A DNA stretch of 64,000 nucleotides, from positions 2,440,850 to 2,504,849 of the forward strand of contig NZ_JACBZA010000001.1 of the NCBI RefSeq assembly GCF_013408535.1, given 5' to 3'. Under the pieces are notes generated by a model. That model did no database searches. It had not been told where the DNA came from and saw nothing but the letters and a program-made list of their open reading frames with translations. The position numbers and the translations under genes are program-made. This document shows, piece by piece, positions 17,445 to 61,629 of this stretch (position 1 is the first letter of the stretch; the number at the start of each line of letters is the position of its first letter). The DNA is from Actinopolymorpha cephalotaxi (GTDB lineage: Bacteria; Actinomycetota; Actinomycetes; Propionibacteriales; Actinopolymorphaceae).

Positions 17445-17478
17445 CGAACCGGCCCGGCAGTTCAGCCGGGCCGGTTCG
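17445..17478. terminator. Bidirectional hairpin between the DsbA-type gene and typA
   Basis: A perfect 14-bp stem (CGAACCGGCCCGGC and its complement) with loop AGTTCA lies between two convergent genes. There is no U-run, as is common in high-GC actinobacteria. Confidence 0.75.
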
Positions 17479-44434: not shown

Positions 44435-44474
44435 GCGGTGGCCGGATTCTTCCGCGGAAGAATCCGGCCACCGC
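44435..44474. terminator. 40-bp perfect palindrome between convergent genes
   Basis: GCGGTGGCCGGATTCTTCCG (44435-44454) is followed directly by its exact complement (44455-44474). As RNA it forms an 18-bp stem with a tight loop, well placed to stop both the DUF5666 and glycolipid-binding genes. Perfect cruciform symmetry of this length is unusual. Confidence 0.7.
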
Positions 44475-56657: not shown

Positions 56658-56789
56658 CCCACCGAACCTCGCAATGCGGTCACACGGGGCAGTGACAAGC
56701 CGGCCTTGACGTTCACCGGCCGGAGACGTCGAGCGGTCGGAGGGCCGGCCTGCTGGGCGGTTCCGGCCCGGCATGGCAGGATCTCGAAG

Positions 56790-57236
56790 GTGAGCAGCAC
56801 CCCGTCCGAGCACCGCCTGCGTGACCTCGCCCTGCTGCGCCGCGTCCGCGACCGGATCGACAGGGAGTACGCCCAGCCGCTGGACGTCGAGGCGCTCGCC
56901 CGCGGCGTGCACATGTCCGCCGGGCACCTGAGCCGCCAGTTCCGGTTGGCCTACGGCGAGTCCCCGTACGGCTATCTGATGACCCGGCGGATCGAGCGGG
57001 CGATGGCGCTGCTGCGCCGCGGCGACCTCAGCGTCACCGAGGTGTGTTTCGAGGTCGGCTGCGCCTCGCTGGGGACCTTCAGTACCCGATTCACCGAACT
57101 GGTCGGAATGCCACCCAGCGTCTACAAACGCGAGGCGGCACAGGGAAGTGCGCAGCTACCGGCGTGTGTGGCCAAACAGGTGACCAGACCGATCAGGAAT
57201 CAAGAAGCACGGCTGGTGGGGTCGCAACTAGCGTGA
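56790..57236 (+). CDS. AraC-family transcriptional regulator (DNA-binding domain only)
   Basis: A 148-residue protein: RDRIDREYAQPLDVEALARG, the first HTH VHMSAGHLSRQFRLAYGESP, then TRRIERAMALLRRGDLSVTE and VCFEVGCASLGTFSTRFTEL, the two-helix-turn-helix AraC domain without an effector domain. The GTG at 56790 is the likely start. It precedes two glyoxalase-fold genes and probably activates them. Confidence 0.9.
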   Translation: MSSTPSEHRLRDLALLRRVRDRIDREYAQPLDVEALARGVHMSAGHLSRQFRLAYGESPYGYLMTRRIERAMALLRRGDLSVTEVCFEVGCASLGTFSTRFTELVGMPPSVYKREAAQGSAQLPACVAKQVTRPIRNQEARLVGSQLA

Positions 57237-57241
57237 CCGGC

Positions 57242-57652
57242 ATGGACATCACCATTCACACCAGCGTCCTCCCGCACGAGGACCCCGAGGCCTCCTTGGC
57301 CTTCTACCGCGACCGGCTCGGCTTCGAGGTCCGCCAGGACGTCGGAAAGGGCACCATGCGCTGGATCACCGTCGGACCGCCCGGCCAGCCCGACACCTCG
57401 ATCCTGCTGGCGCCGCCGTTTGCCGACCCGGGCATCACCGACGACGAGCGCCGCACGGTCGCCGAGATGATGGCCAAGGGCACCTACGGCTGGATTCTCC
57501 TTGCCACAAAGGATCTTGACGGCACGTTCGAGAAGGTCCAGGCGGGCGACGTGGAGGTCGTACAGGAGCCGACCGACCAGCCCTACGGCGTACGCGACTG
57601 CGCCTTCCGGGACCCCGCGGGCAACATGGTCCGCATCCAGGAGGTTCGCTGA
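57242..57652 (+). CDS. VOC/glyoxalase-fold protein
   Basis: A 136-residue VOC protein: HTSVLPHEDPEASLAFYRDR, FEVRQDVGKGTMRWITVGPP and CAFRDPAGNMVRIQEVR, a typical DUF-type glyoxalase/bleomycin-resistance fold. It could bind a metal via HTSV-type His and Glu, but catalysis is not shown. It starts 5 bp after the AraC stop. Confidence 0.88.
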   Translation: MDITIHTSVLPHEDPEASLAFYRDRLGFEVRQDVGKGTMRWITVGPPGQPDTSILLAPPFADPGITDDERRTVAEMMAKGTYGWILLATKDLDGTFEKVQAGDVEVVQEPTDQPYGVRDCAFRDPAGNMVRIQEVR

Positions 57653-60020: not shown

Positions 60021-61082
60021 TCAGTCGCTGGCGAGGGGCGAACTGTCGATGGCCTCGGCGGCGGCGCTCATCGACTCGTCCATGTAGACAGACGTCGTGG
60101 CCAGACTGGAGTGCCCGGCGATCTGGGCGACCGTCGCGATGTCCACACCGGCGCGGGCGAGAACCGTCAGGGCCGTGTGCCGCAGGGAGTGCGGTGTCGC
60201 CCGCCGGCCGAGAAACTCCTTGGTGTAACGCTCCACCATCCGCTGCAGGTCTCGTGGGGAGAGCCGCTTCCCGCGTACGGATACGAACAGCGCGCTGGCC
60301 GCGTCGTCGACCTTGATGCGTTCCGCACGGTCCAGTGACGTCGGCTGCGGAGGTGGCGGACGCTCCTCGGACAGGTATCTCTCGATGGTCCGGAAGGTCG
60401 CAGGTGACAGCGGCAGGTCGCGGTTCTTTCCGCCCTTTCCGCGTACGTGCAGAACCGGCGTGCGGGTCTCCTCGTGCAGCCGGATGTCGCTGCGGTTGGC
60501 GCCGCACAGCTCCGACACCCGTGGTCCCGACTCGACCAGGAGCCGCAGGATCGCCTCGTCGCGGACGGACAGCTTCTGGTCGGCTCGCAGGGCTTCCTGC
60601 GCCCGGCGGCTCGGCGAAGCCCGCAGCAGCAGGGCTTCGTCGACCCGCAGCCCGAGCCGGGCGCCCACCGCTCGCCGCGGGGTGCGCGGCGCGGCGACCC
60701 GTGTGGTGGGGTCGACCTGGACGTAACCCTTGTCCGAGGCCCAGCGGAACAGCCCGCGCACCGCGGCGAACCAGCGGGCAAGGAGATGCTGGCCGCGACC
60801 TGGGGGAGTGGAGCCGTCCTCGGCGATCTTCAGCCCTTTGGTGAACCGACGATCCGGCGCCTTGGCGATGGCCGTCAGCGCGGCTTCGAGATGGTCGGAC
60901 TCGATCGTGTCGAGGACGGTGCCGGGGCCCAGGAGAGAGGTGAAGTCGGTGAGGTCGCGGTGGTAGGCGTGCAACGTGGCGGCGCTGAGCTGGGAACGCA
61001 TCACGCGGCGCTCGAGCACTTCGAGATACTCCAGCACGGCGTCGTGCACGGTCACCGTGGACGACGTTTTCGGCTCGCTCAT
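60021..61082 (-). CDS. Xer-like tyrosine recombinase next to the terminus
   Basis: A 353-residue integrase with all catalytic residues: Arg in LVESGPRVSELCGANRSDIR, Lys in RGKGGKNRDLPLSP, H-x-x-R in TPHSLRHTALTVLARAGVDI, the second His in AGHSSLATTSVYMDES and its Tyr. The N-terminal SAM-like domain has AVLEYLEVLERRVMRSQLSA. It is longer than canonical XerC/XerD (about 300). ATG 61082 is preferred; the frame is open to 61220 but that crosses a perfect inverted repeat at 61097-61126. No excisionase, phage or conjugation genes are adjacent. Confidence 0.92.
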   Translation of the reverse strand: MSEPKTSSTVTVHDAVLEYLEVLERRVMRSQLSAATLHAYHRDLTDFTSLLGPGTVLDTIESDHLEAALTAIAKAPDRRFTKGLKIAEDGSTPPGRGQHLLARWFAAVRGLFRWASDKGYVQVDPTTRVAAPRTPRRAVGARLGLRVDEALLLRASPSRRAQEALRADQKLSVRDEAILRLLVESGPRVSELCGANRSDIRLHEETRTPVLHVRGKGGKNRDLPLSPATFRTIERYLSEERPPPPQPTSLDRAERIKVDDAASALFVSVRGKRLSPRDLQRMVERYTKEFLGRRATPHSLRHTALTVLARAGVDIATVAQIAGHSSLATTSVYMDESMSAAAEAIDSSPLASD

Positions 61083-61096
61083 GGCCGGAAACCTAC

Positions 61097-61126
61097 CATG
61101 TCGTGTAAGTGCTATTACACGACATG
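61097..61126. repeat. Perfect dif-like inverted repeat upstream of the recombinase
   Basis: CATGTCGTGTAA (61097-61108) and TTACACGACATG (61115-61126) are exact complements separated by GTGCTA. Eleven to twelve-bp arms around a 6-bp centre, with TAA/TTA touching the spacer, is the architecture of Xer/dif recombination sites. It lies 14 bp upstream of the recombinase start. It could be its recombination site, an autoregulatory operator, or both. Confidence 0.65.
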
Positions 61127-61601
61127 AATTCGACCAGGATGACGGTGCGGAACCCGCTTCCGACGCTCGGTCACAACCACCCGAGGGTGCTGTGCCACCT
61201 TCTGCTGACGTCAGCTGCATGTAGGTATCTCAGCGTGGCAGGCCAGGGACCAGCGCGCCGACCTGGGACGATGCCTGGTCCGGGGGCTCGGACCCACAGG
61301 CGGCAGTCGGGCGTCGGCGGTTGGCTGCCGACGCTGGAGCGAACACCGGAACGTCAGGATCCCGAACCGTTCGCGGCCTGACGTTCTGGTGCTGTCGGGT
61401 TCGTTGCGTACAGCGTCAGTGCGCATGTCGACGACTCTTCCGCGTACGACAGCCAACGTGCATGGAACGCGGCGACACGACGAGTGGTTCGAAGCCGAGG
61501 CCGGCCGAGCGACGTCGAGCGAGAACGCGACCTGTGGCTCCAGACCGATTTCTGTGCCGTACGAACGAGCCCCTCTCGGCCGTTCTCAGCGCTCTCCGTA
61601 C
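61127..61601. other. Gene-free DNA between the recombinase site and dif
   Basis: No convincing coding sequence is present on either strand from 61127 to the dif site, and only 60 bp separate dif from the GNAT stop at 61690. Codon-position bias is weak and open frames here are antisense or short. I see no promoter that stands out. Confidence 0.6.
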
Positions 61602-61629
61602 AACGCCGATAATGAACATTATGTCAATC
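61602..61629 (+). other. dif: Probable chromosomal dif site (XerCD terminus resolution)
   Basis: The 28 bases consist of arm AACGCCGATAA, centre TGAACA and arm TTATGTCAATC. Against the actinobacterial consensus as I recall it (TTSRCCGATAAT, two free positions, ACATTATGTCAAGT), the core matches perfectly and 24 of 28 positions agree. It is where XerC and XerD resolve chromosome dimers at the replication terminus, so the window probably spans the terminus. Confidence 0.85.

Follow-up and report, generated by a model that had tools for sequence, protein, structure and literature searches.

A tyrosine recombinase gene with its own 30-bp site beside dif resembles a second Xer-type module in two groups of actinobacteria

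The window analyzed here is a stretch of 64,000 nucleotides from Actinopolymorpha cephalotaxi, part of a single-contig genome of 6,858,585 bases. On its minus strand, at 60021–61082, lies a gene for a tyrosine recombinase of 353 aa, recognized from the ORF and its Pfam domains. The start codon is the ATG at 61080–61082; the mechanically called ORF is longer (399 aa). Upstream of the gene, beyond a 14-bp gap (61083–61096), is a 30-bp site with two inverted arms (61097–61126, no strand assigned), which we propose as a core recombination site on the grounds of its conservation with the gene and its single copy. In the window it reads CATGTCGTGTAA-GTGCTA-TTACACGACATG, a perfect 12-6-12 palindrome, and the alignment of sites places its variable centre at 61108–61113. 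The hexamer TAGGTT at 61090–61095, on the minus strand within the gap, was picked by eye and is presumably −10-like; comparable boxes were picked in relatives, likewise by eye. A promoter in this gap would probably be leaderless. On the other side of the site, an interval of 477 bp (61127–61603), similar in length at 12 loci and unconserved in sequence, leads to the dif site of XerCD, CGCCGATAATGAACATTATGTCAA, on the plus strand at 61604–61627. The genome has no other match at ≤1 mismatch, and this dif lies opposite dnaA, at 0.485 of the chromosome from it. A first-pass annotation of the window had described the recombinase with a perfect palindrome 14 bp upstream, exactly as found here; it had also placed dif nearby, which is correct, although the spacing is 477 bp and not 476.

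The protein consists of a Phage_integrase domain and an N-terminal SAM-like domain (Pfam). The six catalytic positions, which we take to be R188, K216, H298, R301, H324 and Y333 (assigned by eye), are invariant in 12 aligned recombinase sequences, and recombinases of this family are 353–354 aa long. The window recombinase scored 148.3 bits on the XerC model and 130.1 on the XerD model, and by score is not an orthologue of either; on the NCBIfam equivalog model for XerS it reached 94.1 bits, below the cut-off of 267. In a 45-row tree, the root of which was distorted by four long odd rows, the family formed a single clade with 100/100 support, separate from XerC and XerD and placed beside the clade containing XerD (support 91/91). 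An AlphaFold2 model of the recombinase had a mean pLDDT of 58.5 and was too poor for use. At about residues 78–97, ahead of the final N-terminal-domain helix, the stretch DRR..xGLKIAEDGSTPPGRG is strongly conserved, and may be usable as a sequence signature of the family.

The gene and the upstream site occur together at 17 loci: in the window, in six other Actinopolymorphaceae and in 10 of 12 Saccharomonospora genomes. The gene was present at 78–100% identity in seven of 38 genomes searched, comprising the window's own, five of the same genus and one from another genus of the family (G006), with weak matches only in a third genus of the family (G007) and in the order-mates. Among 390 genomes from the family to which Saccharomonospora sp. 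NB11 belongs, the gene was found in 10 (E up to 1e-40), which are the same 10 that carry the site. The two Saccharomonospora assemblies without the gene (G755 and G757), in which the site was not found, also have no detectable dif, and were set aside as uninformative. A scan of an 84,980-species collection with short exact peptides, which detects close relatives only, returned three Actinopolymorpha and four Saccharomonospora loci. No copy of the gene was found in 393 other sampled genomes of the class (E up to 1e-60) or in 395 other sampled genomes of the phylum (profile search, E up to 1e-38); these two samples overlap in genomes and five candidates were scored per genome, so remoter kin could escape. 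The sample of carriers is made up of two genera and one genome of a third, and Actinopolymorpha and Saccharomonospora belong to separate orders, Propionibacteriales and Pseudonocardiales, respectively. Synteny of recombinase, palindrome and dif in relatives had been proposed as one check on the first-pass annotation, and it is conserved in both orders, with the palindrome accompanying the gene throughout.

A search for perfect 12-bp inverted repeats with spacers of 4–10 bp gave nine hits at four places in the 64-kb window, corresponding to the 30-bp site, two hairpins and one place inside a gene. In 60 simulated 64-kb sequences there were 0.27 hits on average and two at most. On its own, a perfect 12-bp inverted repeat is weak evidence for a site. 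A chance palindrome was ruled out instead by the comparison of loci, because the site is conserved upstream of the recombinase gene at all 17. (The two hairpins, at 17445–17478 and 44438–44471, are long and perfect, with arms of at least 12 bp across several spacers; they are perhaps transcription terminators.)

Read in the orientation of the gene, the conserved pattern of the 17 sites is GTCGTGTA, 8 bp, and then T(C/A)C(A/G)CGAC. Positions 4–11, 13, 20, 22 and 24–27 are invariant, and positions 1–3, 12, 14–19, 21, 23 and 28–30 vary. The left arm is GTCGTGTA in every site, whereas the right arm is GTCGTGGA in 12 sites, GTCGCGGA in one and GTCGTGTA in four. These last four constitute form A, CATGTCGTGTAATAGCACTTACACGACATG, which the window shares with three close relatives, there being a single change in one of these. 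Form B, CATGTCGTGTAATAGGCAATCCACGACATG, is found with 0–2 changes in the three other Actinopolymorphaceae and in three Saccharomonospora, and the remaining seven Saccharomonospora have forms resembling CATGTCGTGTATTGTGCATTCCACGACTTG. Since the right arm equals GTCGTGTA only in form A, perfect symmetry and the TAA-N6-TTA spacing between the arms are confined to that form; the dif layout that had been read from the window does not hold for the family, being present in 4 of the 17 sites.

The site is single-copy, with one match bearing the right centre in each of the seven Actinopolymorphaceae and each of the 10 Saccharomonospora genomes. Scanning eight Actinopolymorphaceae genomes with the arm pattern at ≤1 mismatch recovered the seven sites and one further place in G006, which has one mismatch and an unrelated centre; G007, which is without the gene, had no match. 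The search for another copy of the palindrome, suggested earlier, thus found none with the right centre in the seven Actinopolymorphaceae (≤2 mismatches in 16 arm bases) or the 10 Saccharomonospora genomes (≤2 mismatches), and a two-site invertible switch was rejected on this basis.

The position of the site is in part that of an operator: it ends 13–15 bp before the start codon at 12 of the 17 loci, abutting the −10-like box, and a palindrome whose centre varies is a usual form of operators as well. The palindrome might then serve as an operator only, bound by the recombinase or by another regulator, with dif or some other sequence as the substrate of the recombinase. At the other five loci, however, the site is intact and the gap is 19, 23, 29, 41 or 1179 bp. 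The longest gap is that of the draft genome G421 (the other 16 loci span 13–41 bp), in which an alpha/beta-hydrolase-like ORF separates the site from the gene. Nor is there a sign of a regulon, as no second right-centre site was found in the genomes scanned, and an operator would leave the location at dif unexplained. The unequal arms are conserved, which favours a single-recombinase site, because asymmetry is expected there, as in difSL (PMC5357621), and less so of a homodimer operator. Taken together, the constancy of the arms and of their asymmetry, the variability of the 6-bp centre and the drift in distance to the gene are more consistent with a recombination site than with an operator, and we consider an operator-only role unlikely. 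Self-regulation may hold in addition to a recombination role. In the draft of Saccharomonospora iraqiensis IQ-H1, an ORF with a sub-threshold alpha/beta-hydrolase match is located between site and recombinase start at L046:4925–5893, and the recombinase frame can be followed to residue 111, after which a stretch of N begins.

A dif site was detected at 16 of the 17 loci, the exception being G421, a draft with runs of N. At all 16, the recombinase gene starts 334–1881 bp from a single dif and is transcribed away from it, and the dif–dnaA arc is 0.477–0.496 in the 10 module-bearing genomes measured. The distance from site to dif is 261–528 bp at 12 loci and 1665–1813 bp in four Saccharomonospora. 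Three of these four have a called ORF between dif and site, which in G753 encodes a GDPD-family protein with a carbohydrate-binding module (L084:7289–8902) and in G752 is similar; none was called in G418. The window and its three close relatives have the module on one side of dif; at the other 12 loci it lies on the opposite side, as a mirror image. The two groups of Actinopolymorpha are divided by the side of dif (L004, L006 and others), and the two centre forms of the site are divided in the same way. A GNAT gene was considered as a shared flank marker and dropped, the DNA match having stemmed from about 56763–57642 of the window. Relative to dif, this stretch has the same side and direction in the window as in G003, and its match in L044 (Saccharomonospora saliphila) is on the other side. 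Judged from this one flanking stretch, there is a weak indication that it was the module, and not dif, that changed sides.

The constant closeness to dif might be taken to mean that the protein is an accessory factor for XerCD, which would bind its site as a recombinase-like protein and shape or regulate recombination at dif. Against this, the catalytic residues are retained, neither the distance nor the side is fixed, and the site–dif intervals have no common motif above shuffled controls: the top 7-, 8- and 9-mers in the intervals of 10 loci were no commoner than in 100 simulations. We regard such an accessory role as very improbable. At 12 loci, the interval between site and dif contained no additional half-site GTCGTGTA or GTCGTGGA. 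An octamer, CCCCTCTC/GAGAGGGG, is present between dif and the module at 5 of 10 loci, which is not above the simulated controls.

Between the orders, the recombinase is 75.2–79.3% identical, compared to 66.3–70.8% for XerD (five pairs). Within the Actinopolymorphaceae, it is less conserved than XerD in all five pairs (77.6–92.4 vs. 84.0–98.1), and of the four pairs within Saccharomonospora, three show slightly higher conservation of the recombinase than of XerD. With XerD as the sole yardstick, this pattern points to horizontal transfer, because a generally slower-evolving gene would not produce it. The recombinase has thus probably passed between the orders, and yet it is found at dif in both; the two genera may represent only one or two acquisition events. 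In 10 pairs, dN/dS was 0.08–0.13, and by this measure the recombinase is under purifying selection.

Probable transfer with arrival at dif in both orders, together with the occurrence of the module on either side of dif, is also what might be seen if an IMEX-like mobile element had integrated at dif and been reduced to a recombinase and an attachment site. An IMEX is bounded by two dif-type sites, whereas each of the 16 loci with dif has one; no second dif-like site was found in flanks of 5–15 kb, where the next best match had 14–16 of 24 bases, although a decayed second copy is conceivable. No cargo was common to both orders in our home-made gene map, and recombination with dif alone would not leave several hundred bases in between. 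Purifying selection on the recombinase likewise argues against a remnant, as does the lack of close relatives in phages, plasmids and viral contigs. Plasmids and phages yielded only relatives of <60% identity, and viral contigs had no confirmed relative of the recombinase and no match to a site pattern that loosely fits the class of 13 of the 17 sites, rather than every variant; a phage or plasmid origin was rejected on these grounds. The suggestion of a dif-using element remnant, made in the first-pass annotation, is weakened by the absence of a second dif and of shared cargo and by the signs of selection, and we now consider it distinctly unlikely.

The genomes that carry the module also encode other Xer recombinases. 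In the window's genome, an XerD-type protein scored 338.8 bits on the XerD model, above its cut-off, and an XerC-type protein scored 293.4 bits on the XerC model. A broken XerC was considered here, since a stop was listed inside the match, but an intact 378-aa ORF is present. The XerD model was run on this genome only; the other module-bearing genomes were scored with the XerC model, the cut-off of which was reached in none of 18 genomes. In 16 of the 17 module-bearing genomes, this model gave two matches besides the module gene, mostly at 280–320 bits, compared to about 143–157 bits for the module gene itself. Some matches were partial in the drafts G419 and G420, and G421 had a single match of 150 bits. 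(A further recombinase in G006, at C1:47580–48458, scored 143 bits; the module and dif of that genome are about 19 kb away.) The module is not the only Xer system of its genome, and the XerC- and XerD-type matches indicate that it adds to XerCD/dif rather than replacing it.

These loci combine a recombinase with its catalytic residues, an inverted-arm site next to the gene and a single copy of that site at the replication terminus. The explanation that we favour, with moderate confidence and from sequence comparison, is a self-contained, single-recombinase Xer-type module, similar to XerS/difSL, that exists alongside XerCD/dif; of the possibilities raised in the first-pass annotation, its "extra Xer system" is the one that agrees best with the data. 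A pair of recombinase molecules would occupy both inverted arms of the site upstream of the recombinase gene, and would recombine two copies of the site when these meet, as in a chromosome dimer or between linked sister termini, with exchange in the central bases. We infer that the module acts in resolving dimers or unlinking termini, perhaps in an FtsK-dependent manner, such that a second resolution site would have been added a few hundred bases from dif, beside XerC and XerD. At loci whose promoter and site overlap, autorepression by the protein may occur as well. Several observations speak against this interpretation: XerCD and dif are present, so that the need for a second resolution system is not obvious; at 12 of 17 loci, the site occupies an operator-like place; the two arms differ slightly from each other, and their inner bases differ between clades; and the side of dif and the distance from it are not fixed (four loci on the opposite side, four others at 1.7–1.8 kb).

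In more general terms, two distantly related actinobacterial groups have a unit of gene and site that resembles a second, self-contained recombination system for separating chromosomes. We suggest tentatively, at slightly less than even chances, that some actinobacterial chromosomes run two terminus resolution systems, XerCD/dif and a transferable single-recombinase module that came to lie beside dif again after crossing orders and has been kept by selection. If so, the module could be a back-up, could offer another exchange where that at dif fails, or could represent a living intermediate on the way from XerCD to single-recombinase systems. This bears on how single-recombinase Xer systems replaced XerCD, for which stable coexistence within a few hundred bases would be the expected intermediate, and poses the question of what brings a transferred recombinase to dif. 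The compact recombinase and its 30-bp site might also be of use in genetic tools.

The module was not described in the literature that we searched, coverage of which excluded most subscription journals. XerC and XerD share its superfamily and terminus region; the module recombinase differs from them in forming a separate clade (100/100) and in having its own site and a length of 353–354 aa. XerL of the Legionellales is a single recombinase whose site has long inverted repeats, of 10 and 12 bp, without interruption (PMC9765430), comparable to the long perfect arms seen here; unlike in the module, the XerL gene and its site are >400 kb apart in L. pneumophila, for which that account identifies no XerC or XerD orthologue (PMC9765430). 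XerH of Helicobacter and Campylobacter is described as a single recombinase of 354–362 aa with difH usually near the gene (PMC5357621, PMC2731167), and from this description it is like the module in protein length and in having its site by the gene, but it belongs to another phylum and replaces XerCD there. The closest parallel is XerS/difSL of streptococci and lactococci, as summarized in PMC5357621, in which a recombinase of 356 aa and an adjoining, slightly asymmetric site of roughly 30 bp make up a single module at the terminus, as recombinase and site do here. The central region of difSL is given as 11 bp (PMC5357621), compared to the 6-bp variable block of our site, and the recombinase is far from XerS in sequence (94 bits vs. 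the cut-off of 267). Moreover, XerS is the sole Xer system in those bacteria, whereas XerC, XerD and dif are also present here. Such coexistence has a precedent in Lactobacillus helveticus, for which PMC3025954 reports an XerS gene near the terminus in addition to XerCD, read as a possible evolutionary intermediate. Neither dif nor an XerS site was found in that case, according to the same source, whereas in the actinobacteria described here both sites are found, and are kept over two genera.
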